Source: an uncultured Flavobacteriales bacterium
Lineage (GTDB): Bacteria > Bacteroidota > Bacteroidia > Flavobacteriales > Schleiferiaceae
Length of the DNA: 64,000 bases
Assembly: GCA_913055685.1 (NCBI GenBank)
Contig: CAJXKC010000001.1
Span: 372,001-436,000 of the forward strand
Direction of reading: 5' to 3'
Position numbers and translations under genes: made by a program. The notes under the pieces are model-generated. The model made no database searches. It was given only the letters and a program-made list of their open reading frames with translations, and was not told the DNA's origin. This document shows, piece after piece, positions 1,519 to 9,888 of the stretch. The first letter of the stretch is position 1. The number at the start of each line of letters is the position of its first letter.

Positions 1519-2976
1519 ATGAATCAAAAAGACACGGAAGCGGTACTGAAGGAGACCCTGGAGATGGATCAATCCTTCCGTGATTCAGTAGCCACCATAA
1601 GCGAAAAAGGATCAAGAAATTTCTTATTTCCCAAAAAGCCAAAAGGAACCTACACCTCTAGGCGTCAGGTGGTGAGCTATTTCTTATTGGCTATATTCTT
1701 TTCCATTCCATTTATTAAGATAGGAGACCAACCTTTCTTAATGCTTAATGTCTTGGAACGCAAATTTGTAATCTTCGGGCAGATTTTCTGGCCCGAAGAT
1801 TTCTTCATTTTTGTGATTGCCATGATCATCGGTGTCCTTTTTGTAGCGGTCTTTACCGTGGCCTTTGGTCGTTTATTCTGCGGTTGGGTTTGTCCCCAAA
1901 CTATTTTCATGGAGCATGTATTTCGACGCATTGAATACTGGATTGATGGTGATCGCAACCAACAATTACGCCTTGCGCGTATGCCATGGAACGGTGAAAA
2001 AATTCGCAAGCGAATATTAAAAAATGGCATTTTCTTCGCTATCGCCTTCATTATCTCCAACTTCTTTTTGATGTATATCATCGGCAAAGATGCTTGGTGG
2101 GAAATTGTTAGCGACGACCCTTCTAAGCACCTGAGTGGTCTTAGCGGTATGTTCATTTTTGCGGGCGTATTCTTCTTTGTTTTTGCCTGGTTTAGGGAGC
2201 AAGCCTGTATCATTGTTTGCCCTTACGGCCGATTACAAGGAGCCCTTTTAGATCGCAACTCGGTTGTTATTGCCTACGATTATTTAAGAGGAGAAAAGAG
2301 AGGTAAGTTTCGCAAGAGTGAAGACCGAGCGGCAGTTGGCAAAGGCGATTGTATAGATTGCAACCAATGTGTAGATGTTTGTCCAACCGGTATCGATATA
2401 CGTAATGGCACCCAGCTGGAGTGTACCAATTGCACGGCCTGTATTGATGCTTGCGACAATATCATGGAAAAAACCAATAAGCCGAAAGGACTTATTCGAT
2501 ACGACTCCGAAAACAATATTGCCAATGGCAGCGGTAAAATTTTTACCGGTCGGGTAAAAGCCTATATGGCAATCTTAGTGGTATTAATGAGCATTTTCAC
2601 CTACCTCTTGATGAGTCGCGCTGATGTAGAGGCCATATTCTTGCGGATGCCTGGACAGCGTTACCAAAAAGTTGACGAGAATACCTACATGAACGCTTAC
2701 AACTGGAAATTGCTTAACAAAACTGCTGAGGATAAAACCTATCAGTTTAAAGCGATAAGTCCAAGTGAAGGATTAAAATTAAAGACCGCAGGGGAATCGG
2801 AGCAAATTACTGTAAATGCCTCCGGCCTTGCAGAAGGAGCGGTTATCTTGTACCTTGATAAAGGCCAACTGACTGGCACCAGCACCGATATTGAAATCGG
2901 CGTTTATGAAGGTGACCTCTTAATAGAGACCATTGAGACCGCCTTTACCGGTCCCTTGGTTAAACCAAAAAAGTAG
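1519..2976 (+). CDS. ccoG: cytochrome c oxidase accessory protein CcoG (polyferredoxin, cbb3 assembly)
   Basis: CcoG is a membrane-bound iron-sulphur protein needed for cbb3 oxidase assembly and linked to copper reduction during maturation. The 485-residue protein shows several membrane segments (about residues 55-75, 92-118, 170-192, 210-230, 345-365). It has the paired motifs CGWVCPQT (about residue 121) and CIIVCPYG (about 231), and a dicluster ferredoxin region with CIDCNQCVDVCP (about 278) and CTNCTACIDACD (about 302). The C-terminal 120 residues form a periplasmic Ig-like domain, as in the family. It starts one base after the ccoP stop, so translation is probably coupled. Confidence 0.95.
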   Translation: MNQKDTEAVLKETLEMDQSFRDSVATISEKGSRNFLFPKKPKGTYTSRRQVVSYFLLAIFFSIPFIKIGDQPFLMLNVLERKFVIFGQIFWPEDFFIFVIAMIIGVLFVAVFTVAFGRLFCGWVCPQTIFMEHVFRRIEYWIDGDRNQQLRLARMPWNGEKIRKRILKNGIFFAIAFIISNFFLMYIIGKDAWWEIVSDDPSKHLSGLSGMFIFAGVFFFVFAWFREQACIIVCPYGRLQGALLDRNSVVIAYDYLRGEKRGKFRKSEDRAAVGKGDCIDCNQCVDVCPTGIDIRNGTQLECTNCTACIDACDNIMEKTNKPKGLIRYDSENNIANGSGKIFTGRVKAYMAILVVLMSIFTYLLMSRADVEAIFLRMPGQRYQKVDENTYMNAYNWKLLNKTAEDKTYQFKAISPSEGLKLKTAGESEQITVNASGLAEGAVILYLDKGQLTGTSTDIEIGVYEGDLLIETIETAFTGPLVKPKK

Positions 2977-2983
2977 ATTGAGG

Positions 2984-3427
2984 ATGAAATTGAATTGGGG
3001 CACAGGCATAGTAATTACCTTAAGCTTATTTGCTATTGGTATGGGTTATGCCGTTTATAAAGCAGTGAACACCAAACATGATTTGGTGACTACCGACTAT
3101 TATCAAAAGGAATTAGCCTACCAGAGTACTATAGACGCCAAGAAAAATGCCGAATCTTTGGGGGAAAATATTCAATTTGACATCAATGGTGATCAGGTAA
3201 GCCTAATTTTTCCCTCTTCCTTGGAAGGTAAAATAGGGGAACTTGAATTGGAGCTTTACTATCCTACCATGGCTAAGCGCGATTTTAATATTAGTAAGCG
3301 CGATTGGAGCATTGGTACTATAGAATTACCACAGGAACAATTAGCCAGTGGTAAGTGGATTGCCAAGGCGCATTTAGAATCGGCCGAAATCAACTATTAT
3401 TTCGAAACCGAAACTGTACTTCACTAA
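2984..3427 (+). CDS. ccoH: FixH/CcoH family cbb3 oxidase assembly protein
   Basis: A 147-residue protein with one N-terminal membrane segment (about residues 5-25) and a periplasmic domain. The motif VTTDYYQKELAYQ after the membrane helix is the FixH signature. FixH/CcoH acts in assembly and stability of cbb3 oxidase, probably with the copper-loading steps. The reading frame is open further upstream, but ATG 2984 gives the short basic N-terminus MKLNWG directly before the helix and lies just behind the ccoG stop. The stop codon overlaps the next start as TAATG. Confidence 0.92.
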   Translation: MKLNWGTGIVITLSLFAIGMGYAVYKAVNTKHDLVTTDYYQKELAYQSTIDAKKNAESLGENIQFDINGDQVSLIFPSSLEGKIGELELELYYPTMAKRDFNISKRDWSIGTIELPQEQLASGKWIAKAHLESAEINYYFETETVLH

Positions 3428-4113
3428 TGTACGCCTTGGCCTTTACCTTCGGCCTTATCTCCTCCTTGCACTGCCTGGGGATGTGCGGACCTTTGCAGGC
3501 CGTGGTCATGGGCTCTTGGCTAAAAAGCAAACGACGCGGTAATTGGTTTATCTACCATTCAGGAAGGCTTAGCACCTATATGGCTCTGGCCTTAATTGCC
3601 ACTCTATTAGGTGCAAGTATGGGAATTCCTGATATGCAAGGAAGTTTTACAATAATTGCCGGGCTCATATTAATTCTGGGCTATTTCGGTCTTAAAGTAC
3701 TTAGCTGGGACCGAAAAATTCTGGCTGTATTTCAACCCTTACTGCGACAGGTGCAAAGCAAGGCTCAAGGAAAAAGTGCAGGAACCTGGTACTTTGTAAG
3801 TGGTGCACTTAATGGCTTATTACCCTGCGGTATGGTATACGCGGCTTTGGTTCCAGCCATGGCCCTGTCCAATCCAGCTGAAGGAGCATTGTATATGTTG
3901 CTTTTTGGTGCAGGTACCCTACCCCTTTTATTGGGTTTCAACCTTTTTAGCAATCAGCTCCTCTTACGTTTTGCACCTCAACTGCAAAAGCTCATTCCTA
4001 TTAGCATCGTAGTAATTGGGGCTCTACTTATATTAAGAGGAATGGAATTGGACATTCCCTATTTATCGCCGGCTGCCCCTAAGCCTAATGCCTCCTTAGA
4101 GTCCTGTTCCTAA
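3427..4113 (+). CDS. sulfite exporter TauE/SafE family membrane protein of the cbb3 cluster
   Basis: A 228-residue polytopic membrane protein with about six helices. The start SSLHCLGMCGPLQA and the second half GLLPCGMVYAAL are the paired Cys/Pro motifs of the short SafE-like family (urease accessory protein UreH-like, DsbD-like) that sits at the end of ccoG-ccoH operons. The conserved MCGP and LPCG cysteines suggest metal or thiol transfer, most likely copper supply for the oxidase; this is inference from context. The start overlaps the ccoH stop by one base. The protein ends with a cytoplasmic tail ending in SCS. Confidence 0.88.
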   Translation: MYALAFTFGLISSLHCLGMCGPLQAVVMGSWLKSKRRGNWFIYHSGRLSTYMALALIATLLGASMGIPDMQGSFTIIAGLILILGYFGLKVLSWDRKILAVFQPLLRQVQSKAQGKSAGTWYFVSGALNGLLPCGMVYAALVPAMALSNPAEGALYMLLFGAGTLPLLLGFNLFSNQLLLRFAPQLQKLIPISIVVIGALLILRGMELDIPYLSPAAPKPNASLESCS

Positions 4114-4128
4114 ACCAATTAAGTCCCT

Positions 4129-4151
4129 GGGTGTTAAAATGAAAAACACCC
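4129..4151 (+). promoter_or_regulatory. inverted repeat directly upstream of a small membrane protein gene
   Basis: GGGTGTT (4129-4135) pairs perfectly with AACACCC (4145-4151), with a 9-base A-rich loop. The ATG of the next gene follows after one base. There is no T tract, so it is not a normal terminator on either strand. It could weaken ribosome access to the ATG or mark the end of the cbb3 mRNA after processing. The role is not known. Confidence 0.4.
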
Positions 4152-4152
4152 T

Positions 4153-4374
4153 ATGAAATTTAGCATTCTATTTTCCTTTGTATTCCTTATTGCCTATGCT
4201 CTCAGCGCATTCTTTCACATAGAGCCATTGGTAATGCTGCTTTTTTCTTTAAGTCCCCTACTAGTGTTATACGTAGTTTATAAGGTACTTAAAGACCCGC
4301 ATGAAGTTAAGGAGAGCTTTGAGGAGCACTTTTACCAAGACGGCAGTCACCCCCGCAGCACTAGCAATGGTTAA
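4153..4374 (+). CDS. small membrane protein of unknown function (73 aa)
   Basis: A 73-residue protein with two predicted membrane segments (about residues 3-21 and 25-46), then an acidic, histidine-containing cytoplasmic tail (HEVKESFEEHFYQDGSHPR). I do not recognise a family. It lies 39 bases after the SafE-like gene on the same strand and its stop overlaps the convergent hemN stop by 4 bases. Position suggests a late gene of the cbb3 cluster, but this is only context. Confidence 0.6.
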   Translation: MKFSILFSFVFLIAYALSAFFHIEPLVMLLFSLSPLLVLYVVYKVLKDPHEVKESFEEHFYQDGSHPRSTSNG

Positions 4375-5720
4375 ACAGCCTGACTAAAGGTGGGCTTCGA
4401 TAATTCTTGAGCACTTAAGCGCCGGTCCAGAACCGAACAAACGTTGCGAATAAAAGCCTGACCCTTACGAGTCACTTTCACCTGGTATGGGAAAATTCGC
4501 AGTAGACCGTCTGCCTGCAAGAGCTCGAATCGCGGCTTTAAAAAAGCATCGAAATAAGCTCGATCATTAAGCCAATCGGCTTCAAAATGGCAAATTAAGT
4601 CAAGTAGCTTAGCACGTACTCCAAGATCCTCATCACTGTGATAATGCGACTTTATTAAGGGCGGATAGTCTTCCGAATTCACCCTTTGTAGGTAGTCTTT
4701 TAATTTCTTTTCATTTTGGGCAAAGCCAGACCAGGCGTCGCTAATGGAACTTGCCCCTAGGGCGATGGCTAAATGGGTATGATGGGGAGTGTAGCCCATG
4801 AAATTTCGATGCAGCTTATGCTTACGCGCAGATATGGCTAAATCATCTTCCGCTAAAGCAAAGTGATCCATACCAATTTCTTGGTATCCCATGGCTAAGA
4901 AACCATCCGCTCCCAAGCGATACAAATCCCATTTATCCTTTCCTTTAGGCAAATCGTTTTCGTCATATGCCCTCTGACTAGGCGCTACGCCAGGCACGTG
5001 TGCGTAAGAATAAAAGGCGATACGATCTGGCTTCAATTGCTTCACCCACTCTAGATTAGCCTCAATGTGCCTTTCGTTTTGTTTTGGCAGGCCGTATATT
5101 AAATCGAAGTTTATGGAGTCGTAGCCAATTTCACGAGCTTTAGCGACGATATGCTCAATTTGAGCCGCGCTTTGAAAACGATTGATAAGACGTAAAATGT
5201 CCTCATCAAAGTCTTGAATACCTAAGCTGAGTCGATTAAAGCCTAATTCAAACAAGGTCTCCAAATGAGCGTCTGTGGTACTAAATGGGTGTGCTTCGAA
5301 GCTAAAAGAGTGAAATTTTTGCACCTCAGCCTCCCCGAGAATTCCTTCAATTAATGTTTTAAGATTATCCGGACTAAAAAAAGTAGGTGTACCGCCCCCC
5401 AGGTGTATTTCCCTAATCTTTGCTTTGCGAGGAAAGCGACTGGTATACATGCGCCATTCCTTTAAAACTGCCTTTACATAGGGCTCTTCTACCAGATGGT
5501 TCTTGGTGATGTGTTTATTACATCCGCAATAGGTACATAAACTTTCACAATAAGGAAGGTGAATGTAGAGACTAATCTCATCGTCCTGTTCAAAGGTTTC
5601 CAAAACCTTATCCATCCAACGTTTTCCACTCAAATCTTTATTCTCCCACAAGGGGACAGTAGGGTAAGAAGTATAGCGAGGAACGGCTACATTGTATTTC
5701 TCTACTAATCTGTAATCCAT
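4371..5720 (-). CDS. hemN: oxygen-independent coproporphyrinogen III oxidase (radical SAM)
   Basis: HemN oxidatively decarboxylates coproporphyrinogen III to protoporphyrinogen IX without oxygen, in the cytoplasm. The protein (449 residues) begins MDYRLVEKYNVAVPRYTSYP, the standard HemN start, and carries the radical SAM cluster motif YCESLCTYCGC (Cys58, Cys62, Cys65, with Cys67 following as in true HemN). GGGTPTF follows, and the C-terminal HemN domain is complete. A TTG three codons upstream is less likely because the predicted promoter lies only 10-20 bases before it. It faces hemJ across a short shared promoter region, so two late haem steps are controlled from one spot next to the haem-rich cbb3 oxidase operon. 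Confidence 0.95.
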   Translation of the reverse strand: MDYRLVEKYNVAVPRYTSYPTVPLWENKDLSGKRWMDKVLETFEQDDEISLYIHLPYCESLCTYCGCNKHITKNHLVEEPYVKAVLKEWRMYTSRFPRKAKIREIHLGGGTPTFFSPDNLKTLIEGILGEAEVQKFHSFSFEAHPFSTTDAHLETLFELGFNRLSLGIQDFDEDILRLINRFQSAAQIEHIVAKAREIGYDSINFDLIYGLPKQNERHIEANLEWVKQLKPDRIAFYSYAHVPGVAPSQRAYDENDLPKGKDKWDLYRLGADGFLAMGYQEIGMDHFALAEDDLAISARKHKLHRNFMGYTPHHTHLAIALGASSISDAWSGFAQNEKKLKDYLQRVNSEDYPPLIKSHYHSDEDLGVRAKLLDLICHFEADWLNDRAYFDAFLKPRFELLQADGLLRIFPYQVKVTRKGQAFIRNVCSVLDRRLSAQELSKPTFSQAV

Positions 5721-5737
5721 TATCTTCAATTTCCAGT

Positions 5738-5768
5738 CAAAACTACATGCTCAAAAAAGCATTGGAAA
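5738..5768 (-). promoter_or_regulatory. predicted promoter of hemN
   Basis: On the minus strand TAGTTTTG (5745-5738) matches the Bacteroidota -7 box TAnnTTTG exactly, and TTTC (5768-5765) sits 19 bases upstream where TTTG is expected. The predicted transcript starts about 10 bases before the hemN ATG. I looked for an FNR-type TTGAT-N4-ATCAA box here and found none. Confidence 0.6.
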
Positions 5769-5791
5769 TGACAATTATCAGACCCTAAGCC

Positions 5792-5799
5792 TATTTTTG
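5792..5799 (+). promoter_or_regulatory. predicted -7 box of hemJ
   Basis: TATTTTTG is an exact TAnnTTTG box and ends only 4 bases before the hemJ ATG at 5804. Transcription would start at or next to the start codon, giving a leaderless or nearly leaderless mRNA. No good -33 element is seen at the expected distance. Confidence 0.5.
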
Positions 5800-5803
5800 T
5801 TCT

Positions 5804-6343
5804 ATGGATTATCAATTCTTCAAAGCCTTACATATTATTGGCTTCGTAGCCTGGTTTGCCGGCATATTTTATATCGTTCGCCTTTTTGTCTACCACCGCG
5901 AGGCCTGGGACTTGGGAACCGAGGACCCCAGAGGCCAAATTTTGCGGGAGCAATACCAAATAATGGAAGAGCGCCTTTACAAAATCATCCAAAGCCCTGC
6001 TATGTACCTTACCCTCATTGGCGGCATCGGGATGCTGCTAATAAATAGTGCTTGGCTGAAAAGCCCTTGGATGCATCTTAAGCTTTCGCTGATATTTATT
6101 TTAATCATCTACCATTTTAGTTGTGGTAAACAAATTAAAGCTTTGGCTAATTCTGCTACTGGAATAAGCAGTTTTGGCTATCGACTTTATAACGAGGTGC
6201 CTACTTTAATTCTCATCGCGGTGGTAATGCTAGCGGTATGGAAAAACCTCGATGGTCTGTGGCTAGGGTTGGCCGTACTTCTTGGCTTGGGACTTTTGTT
6301 TTTTATTGCCGCCAAACTTTATCGCCGAAAGAGAGAGTCTTAA
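5804..6343 (+). CDS. hemJ: protoporphyrinogen IX oxidase, HemJ family
   Basis: HemJ oxidises protoporphyrinogen IX to protoporphyrin IX in the cytoplasmic membrane. The 179-residue protein has about four to five membrane helices and the family start FKALHIIGFVAWFAGIFYI with the conserved His in KALHIIG. It also has YRLYNEVPTLILIAVV near the C-terminus, where the conserved RxxNE lies. Length is close to the family's usual size. Its promoter region is shared with hemN, which catalyses the preceding step. The next 500 bases hold no protein gene but three small RNA units. Confidence 0.9.
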   Translation: MDYQFFKALHIIGFVAWFAGIFYIVRLFVYHREAWDLGTEDPRGQILREQYQIMEERLYKIIQSPAMYLTLIGGIGMLLINSAWLKSPWMHLKLSLIFILIIYHFSCGKQIKALANSATGISSFGYRLYNEVPTLILIAVVMLAVWKNLDGLWLGLAVLLGLGLLFFIAAKLYRRKRES

Positions 6344-6415
6344 AATTTTTTAGTGCCTCATTTTCATGATCTTACAGACAGCTTTTGCGTTTTTTGCAAA
6401 TAATGGATTTAGCTA

Positions 6416-6448
6416 TTTGCATTTTTCGATAATAGCGTCTTATATTTG
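6416..6448 (+). promoter_or_regulatory. predicted promoter of tandem small RNA unit 1
   Basis: TATATTTG (6441-6448) is an exact TAnnTTTG box. TTTGC (6416-6420) lies 20-21 bases upstream as the -33 element. Transcription is expected to start about six bases after the box, right at the conserved head of the small RNA (6454). Confidence 0.65.
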
Positions 6449-6453
6449 TACCA

Positions 6454-6514
6454 GCGAAGCAGATTAATCAGGTTAAGGTTTTACCTCGGCATCCTTCTGG
6501 ATGCCGGGGTTTTT
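6454..6514 (+). ncRNA. tandem small RNA unit, copy 1
   Basis: The unit begins with a head shared by all three copies (GCGAAGCAGATTAATCAGG, then TTAAGGTTTTACC) and ends in a strong intrinsic terminator. CCTCGGCATCC (6484-6494) pairs over 11 positions with GGATGCCGGGG (6499-6509) around a TTCT loop, followed by TTTTT. With its own promoter this is a free-standing transcript of about 60 nt. There is no open reading frame of useful length and no protein gene downstream, so it is not a leader. The 130 bases between this copy and the next hold nothing else I can identify. Confidence 0.7.
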
Positions 6515-6648
6515 CCATTTTATAGACCTAAGCAAGTCAAACAAAACAAGATACAAATCGCTGTTTTACAGCAATTTACCCAATAACACCAAAGAAAGTA
6601 TCGCAATCTAGAGTTCTTCCCAATTGGAAAGTGTACCTTTATAGTTCT

Positions 6649-6705
6649 GCGTAAGCAGATTAATCAGGTTAAGGTTTACCCCGTTAGTTTACTAGCGGGG
6701 TTTTT
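6649..6705 (+). ncRNA. tandem small RNA unit, copy 2
   Basis: The head GCGTAAGCAGATTAATCAGG matches copy 1 apart from one extra T. The terminator stem has a different sequence but the same design: CCCCG (679-683 of this kb) pairs with CGGGG (6696-6700), continued by a T-G pair and TAG/CTA, then TTTTTCTTTTTTT. A weak -7 box TACCTTTA (6634-6641) precedes the head. No convincing -33 element is seen, so this copy may be less active or controlled by an activator. Confidence 0.62.
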
Positions 6706-6764
6706 CTTTTTTTAGAAGGGCCCATTATGAATTTTTCATTTTTTCACATTATTGGATATGAAAA

Positions 6765-6795
6765 ATTGCCAATTAAAAAAATTATTCTACTTTAG
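6765..6795 (+). promoter_or_regulatory. predicted promoter of tandem small RNA unit 3
   Basis: TACTTTAG (6788-6795) matches TAnnTTTG at five of six fixed positions. ATTG (6765-6768) lies 19 bases upstream. The box ends six bases before the conserved head, the same distance as in copy 1. Confidence 0.5.
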
Positions 6796-6800
6796 CAGTA

Positions 6801-6860
6801 GCGAAGCAGATTAATCAGGTTAAGGTTTTACCCCGTCGTCCTTCTGGATGACGGGGTTTT
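6801..6860 (+). ncRNA. tandem small RNA unit, copy 3
   Basis: The head GCGAAGCAGATTAATCAGG and TTAAGGTTTTACC are identical to copy 1. The terminator pairs CCCCGTCGTCC (6831-6841) with GGATGACGGGG (6846-6856) around TTCT, followed by TTTT. Compared with copy 1 the stem has a two-sided change (G-C to T-A at the sixth pair) and two one-sided changes that keep pairing, so the hairpin itself is under selection. The trailer reaches the stop codon of the convergent cyclase gene at 6867. Confidence 0.7.
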
Positions 6861-6866
6861 CCATTT

Positions 6867-7607
6867 TTAGACCCTTTTGCTTTTGTAAAAAATAGGCCGG
6901 GAAGGAACGGCATCACTATGTAGGGGCGCAGATTGAAGGTTAAGGTAATAATAGCCCGCCTCCATTTCACTTGGGAAAACTGCCAGCTCTGTTATAGTTG
7001 AATATTGGCGAGTATTTTCTGGGTATTGCCAAAAGGCTTTATGCGCTGCCAAAGCGCCCCCATCTTCCTCTCGATCAACGGAAGGTAAATTGCATATTAG
7101 ATGCTTCACCCCCTTCTCTGCTAGGAAGGCACATAAGGCGGGGTCAAAATAAGGCGGATTGGTACCGCTAAAATCTTGAGGGAAACTTATTCCCTTCGCC
7201 TCAATCGCAAATACCTCTATCTCTTGCCAATCAATATCCGGTAAGTCTTCCAGGCTTAGGATTCGATTTCCTAGTTGCTCCTTTAAACCTTGACGATGGA
7301 AATAAGCGATGAAATGATGCTCCAGTAAATGGGCGTTCAACTTTTGATGACCCTTATCAATATGACCGTAACATTCGGTATGAGTGCCATTTCCGTGGGG
7401 AACCAACTGTACTTGAAAAAAGTTAACACTGGCCCCTTCCTTTACTGCGCCTACCCAATCTCCCATTACTATGGGTTCTATTTTTACCGGCTCTGCATAC
7501 CAGGCTCTTGGCTCCCTTTCAGGCTCGCCAAAAGTGCTGGAACAATCAAAAGCTTGGTCCAAATTGGCCTGCCACTTTTGGCCTCTTCTTTCAAATTCAA
7601 TAATCAT
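6867..7607 (-). CDS. cyclase family protein (kynurenine formamidase-like metal hydrolase)
   Basis: A 246-residue soluble protein of the cyclase/kynurenine formamidase superfamily. The metal-binding motif is seen as HGNGTHTECYGHI (residues 71-83), where family members have HxGTHxDxPxH; the usual Asp is a Glu here. Further family features are SFPQDFSGTNPPYFD and the conserved glutamate region near the C-terminus. Substrate cannot be fixed from sequence. An ACMSD-type decarboxylase of the kynurenine pathway lies 30 kb away, which makes N-formylkynurenine possible but not shown. It follows hemW by 3 bases and is probably co-transcribed with it. Confidence 0.8.
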   Translation of the reverse strand: MIIEFERRGQKWQANLDQAFDCSSTFGEPEREPRAWYAEPVKIEPIVMGDWVGAVKEGASVNFFQVQLVPHGNGTHTECYGHIDKGHQKLNAHLLEHHFIAYFHRQGLKEQLGNRILSLEDLPDIDWQEIEVFAIEAKGISFPQDFSGTNPPYFDPALCAFLAEKGVKHLICNLPSVDREEDGGALAAHKAFWQYPENTRQYSTITELAVFPSEMEAGYYYLNLQSAPLHSDAVPSRPIFYKSKRV

Positions 7608-7610
7608 TTT

Positions 7611-8732
7611 CTAGGTATAAAATAAATCTGCGGCGATGCCATCACTAAAAAAACGCCATTCCGATGGAATACGATAACCCTCGGAAAACTGCACCAATTT
7701 ACCTGTAGCCAACAATTTCCTTGATTCTTTAAGCCAATGCCTTTGAAACACGGGGCTAAAGGAATTTATTTCCCGCTCACTAATGCCTTCGAGAAGCCTT
7801 AAACGGGTCATTAGCATTTCATTAAAGCGGTCCTTTTCTTCCAGAATTTCCTTCTCAAGCGCCAAGCCGTCCTGCTCCAATGCTTTTAAATAAAGGGCAT
7901 TATTAGCTACATTCCAGCTTCGCTCCTTGCCATTGTAAGAATGTGCGGATGGGCCCAGGCCCAAATAGGCCGTGCCTTCCCAATAACTACCATTGTGTAC
8001 TGCTCGCTTACCCGGTCTCGCAAAATTGGAAAGCTCATAATGTTCATAGCCTTCCTTTTTTGCAAAGTCCTGCAAAAGCTCAAAATGCTTTGCGGCATTC
8101 TCATCTTTTAACTCAACCGCTCCTTTGGCTTGGAGATAGGCCAGTTTAGTTTTAGACTCCACGGTTAAAGCATAAGCCGAAAAATGGGGTATATCGAAGG
8201 TCTTTAAATGCTCCATTTGCCACAGCCAATCCTCTGGGCTTTGGTTTGGTAAACCATAAATGAGATCGATACTATAATTATCAAATCCATACTTGGCTAA
8301 AGATTCTAAACAACCTATTGCCTCCTTAGCCGAATGCGCACGATTCATAAAGCTTAAGTCGGCCTCTTTAAAACTCTGAATTCCTATTGAAAGTCGATTT
8401 ACAGGGCTTCGCGAAAGCTCAGTCAGATAAGCCTCATTAAGATCATCAGGATTCGCCTCGAGGGTGATTTCGGCACTAGCATCAATACCGTATAAATTAT
8501 CCAATGCTTCGATAATTTTCTCGATATCTGCTATTGGCACCACACTAGGTGTTCCTCCCCCAAAGTATATAGATTTCAATGCTTGCTGTGGCAGAAAGTC
8601 TTTGCGCAATTGGGCTTCTTTGATAATAGCCATTGTCATTGCACCTCGGTCTTTCTCTAGGGTACTAAAATGAAAATCGCAGTAAATGCAGGCCTGTTTG
8701 CAAAAGGGAATATGAATATAGGCTCCAGCCAA
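7611..8732 (-). CDS. hemW: haem chaperone HemW (radical SAM, coproporphyrinogen oxidase-like)
   Basis: HemW-type proteins carry a radical SAM cluster, bind haem and deliver it to respiratory enzymes; they are not coproporphyrinogen oxidases. The motif IHIPFCKQACIYCDFHF gives CxxxCxxC at residues 11-18, and the residue after is Asp-Phe rather than the Gly-Cys of HemN, which separates the two. GGGTPSV and the HemW C-terminal domain follow. I place the start at TTG 8732 (MAGAYIHIPF), the usual family start, two bases after the kinase stop; ATG codons at 8777 and 8798 would add residues translated out of frame from the kinase gene. Together with hemN and hemJ this makes three haem genes within 5 kb of the cbb3 operon. 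Confidence 0.87.
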   Translation of the reverse strand: MAGAYIHIPFCKQACIYCDFHFSTLEKDRGAMTMAIIKEAQLRKDFLPQQALKSIYFGGGTPSVVPIADIEKIIEALDNLYGIDASAEITLEANPDDLNEAYLTELSRSPVNRLSIGIQSFKEADLSFMNRAHSAKEAIGCLESLAKYGFDNYSIDLIYGLPNQSPEDWLWQMEHLKTFDIPHFSAYALTVESKTKLAYLQAKGAVELKDENAAKHFELLQDFAKKEGYEHYELSNFARPGKRAVHNGSYWEGTAYLGLGPSAHSYNGKERSWNVANNALYLKALEQDGLALEKEILEEKDRFNEMLMTRLRLLEGISEREINSFSPVFQRHWLKESRKLLATGKLVQFSEGYRIPSEWRFFSDGIAADLFYT

Positions 8733-8733
8733 A

Positions 8734-9888
8734 CTATGGAAGCTTTGGTAAAAGAATTCTGAAAGTGGTTCCTTCATTGAGGCTAGAACTGGCCACAAAG
8801 ATTTTACCTTGATGGTATTGTTCGATAATGCGTTTGGCCAAGCTTAAGCCTAAACCCCAGCCGCGCTTTTTAGTGGAAAAGCCCGGTCTAAAAACGGTTT
8901 TTAGCTTGGCCGCACTAATCCCTTTACCACTGTCTTGCACATCTATCTGCAACCATTTGGCATCTTTAACCTCCATGCTTACCCTTATTGTTCCTGGACC
9001 CTCGATGGCGTCAATCGCATTGCGAATCAAATTTTCAATCACCCATTCAAATAATGGCTTGTTGAGAAAGGTATACAATGGTTCTCGGGGTAAATCGCAG
9101 TTTACCTCAATTTTCTTGGGGCTGCGGTTACGGAGGTAGTCGACTGCCATTTTAGTGGCAAAAACTAAATCGGTTTCCTTTAAGGCAGGCTGAGAGCCAA
9201 TCTTAGAAAAACGATTGGTAATGGTCTCCAGTCTTTTTATGTCCTTCTCCATTTCCATCGGAATAGAAGGATCTATCTCTTGCATTTTTAAGAGCTCCAG
9301 CCAGCCCATCAAGGACGATAATGGGGTGCCAATTTGGTGGGCTGTTTCCTTGGCTAAGCCATTCCATACCTGGTTTTGCTCGGCTTTTCTGGCGCCACTA
9401 AAGGCAAAGTAGGCAATTAAAATAAAGAGGCTTATTACCACTAAGAGCACAATCGGATAAATCCTTAGCTTGGTTAGAATGGTACTATCCTCATAGTATA
9501 CTATATAAGGCTGATTTTGCTGAAAGTCGGCTTCGATAAAACTTCCCCCATCCTTCATCTCTTCCAAACGATTGCGCAAAAACTGATCTTGCTTGGTCTT
9601 GGGGAGTTCAATGTTTCGGGTAACAATTATGCTATCCCTATCATTGGTTATAATTACCGGAATGGTGGTGTTATTTCGAAGAATTTCGGTAACGAGCGTC
9701 AGGTCGGTATTTTCTGTTGCCTGCTGCACCTTAGCCATGGCATTGGCCCAAAGGTTAACCTTTTTAAGCTCTTCATTACGAAGGTCTTTCAAAAAACTCT
9801 CGGTATACAAGAGGGTAATTACCCCAATGAGTATCGCAAAGAGGAATAAGAAAAACTTCCAAAGGTTTTTGCGGCTGTAAAAATCCAT
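8734..9888 (-). CDS. membrane-bound sensor histidine kinase
   Basis: A 384-residue kinase with a membrane helix at about residues 11-30, a 110-residue periplasmic sensor region, a second helix at about 141-164, and a kinase core. The phosphoacceptor box is AKETAHQIGTPLSSL with His184, a form common in Bacteroidota kinases. The ATP-binding domain shows the N box LIRNAIDAIE, the G1 box DSGKGIS and the G2 box GWGLGLSLAKRIIEQ. No response regulator gene is adjacent, so the partner is not known; a lone receiver-domain protein lies at 62.0 kb. The signal is not predictable from the sensor region. Confidence 0.92.
   Translation of the reverse strand: MDFYSRKNLWKFFLFLFAILIGVITLLYTESFLKDLRNEELKKVNLWANAMAKVQQATENTDLTLVTEILRNNTTIPVIITNDRDSIIVTRNIELPKTKQDQFLRNRLEEMKDGGSFIEADFQQNQPYIVYYEDSTILTKLRIYPIVLLVVISLFILIAYFAFSGARKAEQNQVWNGLAKETAHQIGTPLSSLMGWLELLKMQEIDPSIPMEMEKDIKRLETITNRFSKIGSQPALKETDLVFATKMAVDYLRNRSPKKIEVNCDLPREPLYTFLNKPLFEWVIENLIRNAIDAIEGPGTIRVSMEVKDAKWLQIDVQDSGKGISAAKLKTVFRPGFSTKKRGWGLGLSLAKRIIEQYHQGKIFVASSSLNEGTTFRILLPKLP

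Follow-up and report, generated by a model that had tools for sequence, protein, structure and literature searches.

Tandem sibling small RNA genes with a conserved open head and three separate promoters, predicted downstream of hemJ in a Flavobacteriales genus

The window, by which we mean the whole stretch of 64,000 nucleotides analysed here, carries hemJ, followed on the same strand by three tandem small RNA (sRNA) units and then by a convergent putative cyclase gene (Table 1). Each unit consists of a shared unstructured head followed immediately by a strong intrinsic terminator. The array lies within a respiration/heme cluster (2933-8798) composed of a small FixH-like membrane protein gene (named by eye), a gene for a DsbD_2-domain membrane protein, hemN, hemJ, the sRNAs, the cyclase gene and hemW. 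The absence of a protein gene in sense behind copy 3, pointed out when the DNA was read from the sequence alone, holds, the next gene being the convergent one. The upstream neighbour of the array is hemJ in three genera. In the genus of the window the flanks are hemJ and the cyclase gene, then hemW, wherever the neighbourhood was read; in sister genera the cyclase gene does not adjoin the array, beyond which lie a pirin-like gene, named by eye (genus g2), or an Rrf2-family regulator (genus g3).

Table 1. Positions of the sRNA array, its promoter elements and neighbouring genes in the window, with the loci of the second element in other genomes.
Feature	Position	Strand	Remarks
hemN (oxygen-independent coproporphyrinogen III oxidase)	4371..5729	-	TIGR00538 over cut-off
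hemJ (protoporphyrinogen oxidase)	5804..6343	+	TIGR00701, 147.8 bits, cut-off 138
TTTGCAA/TTTGCA elements upstream of copy 1	6393..6421	+	direct reading; -33 element formed by the proximal of these (6416-6421)
Copy 1 -7 box TATATTTG	6441..6448	+	Bacteroidota consensus TAnnTTTG; identical at copy 1 in 7/7 genus genomes
Copy 1 sRNA (predicted)	6453..6515	+	predicted start 6453, head 6453-6482, terminator stem 6483-6510, T run to ~6515
Copy 2 degenerate promoter region TACCTTTATAGTTC	6634..6647	+	exact TATATTTG at copy 2 in 6 congeners, not in this genome
Copy 2 sRNA (predicted; probably weak or decaying)	6648..6706	+	terminator stem 6678-6701, T run
Copy 3 -7 box TACTTTAG	6788..6795	+	identical at copy 3 in 5/6 congeners; TATATTAG in the sixth
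Copy 3 sRNA (predicted)	6800..6861	+	predicted start 6800, head 6800-6829, terminator stem 6830-6857, T run
Putative cyclase gene, convergent with copy 3	6867..7607	-	PF04199
AATTAGGTTAAGGTTTGGTTAATTGGTTGACCA element loci	L249-L261		genomes G009, G010, G011, G001, G002, G006, G021, G022, G025-G028

The shared head AAGCAGATTAATCAGGTTAAGG begins at 6457, 6653 and 6804 of the plus strand, and its 20-nt core GCAGATTAATCAGGTTAAGG at 6459, 6655 and 6806. A pattern scan of the whole window gave no further match to this core with up to three mismatches allowed; shuffled windows contained a mean of 0.01 matches, and none contained three. The same three copies were recovered by a repeat search, in which copies 1 and 3 agree at 90% over 70 nt; the head of copy 2 has CGTAA in place of GCGAA. 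The terminator scan returned stems of 12, 10 and 12 bp for copies 1, 2 and 3, with a T run after each, and five terminator-like sites in the array region as opposed to 0.5 in shuffles. Three head-plus-terminator units had been proposed by the sequence-only reading, and this proposition is confirmed. RNA folding gave z-scores of -4.0, -4.5 and -3.8 for copies 1, 2 and 3, while the head by itself is unfolded (z +0.7), and the predicted fold is that of an open head with one hairpin. The run of T residues following the head varies between three and four bases from copy to copy. Covariance-model scores were 82.6 bits for copy 1 (E 2.5e-22, copy 1 itself being among the sequences from which the model was built), 63.6 bits for copy 2 and 84.7 bits for copy 3 (E 5.5e-23).

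The start of copy 1 was placed 5 nt past its -7 box by means of the box-to-start spacing reported for Flavobacterium psychrophilum promoters (PMC9723704), and the TTTGCA of the -33 element lies ~20 bp upstream of that box. The box of copy 3 stands at the same distance from its head as that of copy 1. For these two copies the promoter boxes originally read are retained, as is the weakness of copy 2, which has no good -7 box by direct reading. The interpretation of the latter is nevertheless to be corrected, since the exact TATATTTG is found at copy 2 in all six relatives: the copy 2 of the window is a degraded copy that has lost its box and whose terminator, too, diverges most. Boxes resembling TTTGCAA occur upstream of copies 1 and 3 in several genomes and were not seen at copy 2, and TTGCAA dyads or repeats comparable to those of the window precede copy 1 in several congeners. 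It is possible that the boxes of copies 1 and 3 form a putative shared operator, bound by a common regulator. Further sequences were observed in the vicinity. In some genomes the boxes upstream of copy 1 are arranged as a dyad, TTTTGCAA-N7-TTGCAAAA, and ATTAAAATTTGCAA is conserved upstream of copy 3 in congeners. Palindromes lie between copies 1 and 2 (6553-6579, AAATTGCTG/CAGCGATTT) and differ among genomes, those of G001 and G002 being ATTTAGAC/GTCTAAAT; they are possible operators of copy 2.

Exactly three tandem copies are located downstream of hemJ in each of the seven searched genomes of the genus (two of them in one contig), and the genome of the window has no others. Over the 22-nt head, 21/21 of these copies are identical, in contrast to their divergent upstream sequences and terminator stems. 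Head columns -2 to +22 do not vary among the 21, and for the majority of columns ahead of the -7 box agreement drops to 7-16 copies. Downstream of hemJ there is also one copy in sister genus g2, and there are three in sister genus g3; the heads of these copies are almost unchanged, and their terminator stems are unrelated. The sequence-only reading had made its case depend on the head being found in related genomes, and it is present in all seven of the genus as well as in sister genera. A fourth, altered copy, whose head ends in AGGTTAAACTGACC, was observed at an unrelated locus of one genus genome (G006, L102:3772-3826, G006:C278). Among 396 genomes sampled across the order, convincing copies are limited to the family of the window's genome. 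The exact degenerate head pattern, searched for in 84,980 species genomes, occurs in Flavobacteriales/Bacteroidetes MAGs only, some of them labelled Owenweeksia sp., apart from two lone matches (L031 and L047) that were rejected because no terminator stands behind either; viral contigs gave no match to the head. Weak covariance-model matches of less than ~34 bits elsewhere in the family were set aside as being mostly plain terminators; those in G031 (33.7 bits) and G038 (26.3 bits) are situated at gene ends before terminators, with no head.

The stems of copies 1 and 3 differ by one G-C to T-A double change, one T-G to C-G and one A-T to G-T change, and direct reading bears out the account of these changes that had been given at the outset. 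The terminator helix covaries among 18 sequences: 86% of helix cells are paired as against 77% in shuffles, double changes occupy 20 cells as against 6.3, and the true register beats all slid registers. It had been concluded from such changes that the stem is selected. The pairing-keeping changes are real, but by themselves they are a sign of a maintained terminator only; the evidence for sRNA genes is the head, which is conserved across genomes. What does not vary is the unpaired head, as would be the case for a seed or a protein site. The anatomy and the strict conservation of the head are established computationally, and the earlier proposal that these are free-standing RNA genes, ~60 nt long and individually equipped with promoter and terminator, holds as a prediction from this anatomy and its conservation in relatives.

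The promoters and the bodies of the array behave in opposite ways. Within the genus, the mean distance between upstream regions is 0.43 for the same copy position across species and 0.63 within a genome, while terminator bodies are 0.18 apart within a genome and 0.35 apart between same-numbered copies of different genomes. Promoters thus cluster with their positional counterparts in other species and bodies with those of the same genome, and in 0/5000 label permutations was either effect as strong. Within each genome, the bodies of copies 1 and 3 differ at just 0-13% of positions. It follows from the two groupings that the tripling preceded the diversification of the genus, after which the promoters diverged and remained distinct, and that homogenisation of the bodies is continuing; three old promoters would drive one homogenised RNA in the genus. 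Gene conversion would be the simplest route to this homogenisation. The suggestion that the copies are dosage or condition variants is supported, and it is sharpened by the finding of distinct ancient promoters on homogenised bodies.

A second element, AATTAGGTTAAGGTTTGGTTAATTGGTTGACCA with small variations, followed by a terminator, is found in five genera, that of the window included; most of its loci are 3' UTRs of an RND efflux gene. Its place is just behind this gene (AcrB family) and ahead of dxs in two genomes of the window's genus as well as in genera g4, g8, g9 and g12, and behind the RND gene only in G011; in G009 and G006 there are copies at other loci, the extra G009 copy with a promoter-like TATATTCG. 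Most genomes show no promoter box for the element, and its pattern read backwards gave no matches. The element has AAT[CT]AGGTTAAGGTTT in common with the tandem heads. As it was found by searching with the head, there is some selection in this match, and a common seed is the better reading of the likeness, short of proof. The element has the appearance of a separate sRNA derived from a 3' UTR. It can be tentatively hypothesised, with somewhat more doubt than confidence, that the tandem sRNAs beside hemJ and the RND 3'-UTR RNA act through AAT[CT]AGGTTAAGGTTT on one and the same regulon, by which envelope efflux would be tied to heme/respiratory status, and that gene conversion keeps the tandem RNAs identical but leaves their promoters distinct.

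With regard to function, we consider it probable that the array comprises three sibling sRNA genes, with an open 5' seed and a terminator hairpin, that act in trans by pairing with mRNAs independently of Hfq, three promoters yielding one RNA product. Each copy would be transcribed from its own sigma-A-type promoter, from a few bases before GCGAAGCAG to the intrinsic terminator ~60 nt further on, and the RNA would consist of ~30 nt of unstructured 5' seed and the terminator hairpin. The seed would most likely pair with several mRNAs, probably in their translation-initiation regions, and the single product of three promoters would allow different signals, or a higher dosage, to feed one regulon. 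Hfq is absent from all seven genomes of the genus, and a protein with a single RRM domain (RRM_1, ~95-107 aa) is present in six of the seven. The RNAs probably work like FopS, the family of paralogous sRNAs of Bacteroides thetaiotaomicron, whose members of ~65-70 nt have a shared 5' seed and a variable remainder, pair through their 5' ends with susC mRNAs at the start region and are ligands of the RRM protein RbpB; one member is 3'-UTR-derived and the others stand alone (PMC11697453). FopS is the nearest analogue, being of the same phylum, of similar size and layout, and found in a phylum that is free of Hfq and has an RRM-1 protein.

Pairing of the head with mRNA start regions, which had been suggested, is so far not supported by target scans. 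These scans for long matches covered the seven genomes with the complementary patterns AACCTTAACCTGATTAA (two mismatches) and CTTAACCTGATTA (one mismatch), with the reversed pattern as a control. One gave 23 non-self matches and 19 in the control, and a further one ~62 and ~52, which is no clear excess in either case. Long near-complementary targets were rejected, as the counts are near those of the reversed control and nearly all matches lie inside coding sequences; the few shared between genomes fall inside conserved proteins. No 5'-region site complementary to the head and conserved across orthologues was found in the seven genomes. Three matches lie right at start codons, those of a secreted protein gene in G004 and of a zinc-finger protein gene and a secreted protein gene in the window's genome (G000); the zinc-finger site was taken as a chance match, being absent from the relatives' orthologues. 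Since the scans revealed no clear excess and no 5' sites that are conserved, the target step is one that we infer, as are transcription, base pairing and the signals.

The main rival to mRNA pairing is a protein decoy, in which the head, AGGTTAAGGTT with its repeated GGTT, would bind a protein such as that with the RRM_1 domain and the RNAs would act as a sponge, as do CsrB and RsmZ for CsrA. The head is conserved for more than 22 nt, a length beyond that needed for pairing and beyond that of a usual pairing seed; this could point to protein binding and counts against pairing. A sponge would also accord with the single-stranded state of the head, with the two GGTT occurrences of the tandem RNA and the four of the RND 3'-UTR element, with the presence of an RRM protein and with the lack of complementary targets in the scans. 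However, typical sponges have many sites per RNA, and here there is one short head, with no second site in the terminator or loop. We regard the decoy as unlikely.

Far less probable is a DNA-level role without a functional RNA, in which the units would be operators or other DNA sites, or promoter-terminator pairs insulating the neighbours. The head does begin right at the predicted start, a possible position for an operator, and GATTAATC is palindromic by direct reading, but promoter, head and terminator follow one another in fixed order in every unit, nothing else is there to regulate, and the seed recurs in 3' UTRs ahead of terminators where a promoter box is missing in most genomes. A premature-termination leader, either attenuator or riboswitch, would fit the layout of leader plus terminator; it is very improbable, since the next gene past copy 3 is convergent and none lies in sense, three leaders in series would stop one another, the predicted fold holds no alternative pairing of head and terminator, and Rfam gives no riboswitch match. 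A thrice-repeated short peptide-coding gene, for which one open frame of the head could be adduced by direct reading, can practically be dismissed, as the predicted transcript has no ATG, GTG or TTG ahead of the terminator stem and the T run of three or four bases after the head shifts any frame.

Returning to the sibling sRNAs as the preferred reading, at least two homologous genes, each with promoter and terminator (the promoter of copy 2 being degraded here), and a conserved single-stranded seed are the features by which such sRNAs are recognised, and they are found in this array as predicted. No Rfam family matches the window at gathering score. The best match below threshold reached 23.8 bits against a gathering score of 44, and matches of this kind, such as L10_leader and anti-hemB, were taken as chance, being far below gathering. 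The comparison with Flavo-1 that had been proposed yields no match, either at gathering score or among matches to E 5, and a description of the tandem RNA was not found in the open-access literature. FopS comprises 14 dispersed copies, in contrast to three in tandem here, and the head pattern occurs in no Bacteroidaceae in the exact-pattern scan of the 84,980 species genomes, the FopS sequence itself being compared by description. Adjacent, near-identical sRNA genes with shared regions are likewise seen in OmrA/OmrB, PrrF1/PrrF2 and AbcR1/AbcR2, tandem siblings thought to derive from duplication (review PMC4211561); these are proteobacterial, unrelated to the array in sequence (no Rfam match), and occur in two copies, whereas the array has three. 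Rfp18 of F. psychrophilum (PMC9723704) is also an intergenic flavobacterial sRNA conserved throughout a genus, but it is structured, with pairing predicted for its third stem-loop, unlike the unstructured head and single hairpin described here, from which it is set apart by description. On sequence grounds, the tandem RNAs thus appear to be a new family of sibling sRNAs, a known kind, outside FopS as far as pattern scan and description go.

Few sRNA families are known in Flavobacteriia, and the genus lacks Hfq. The tandem family is precisely delimited, its head is strictly conserved, and it has no name in Rfam. The array offers a natural case in which promoters have evolved separately while the bodies were homogenised, so that the two reasons for keeping sibling sRNAs, dosage and the response to different signals, become testable apart.
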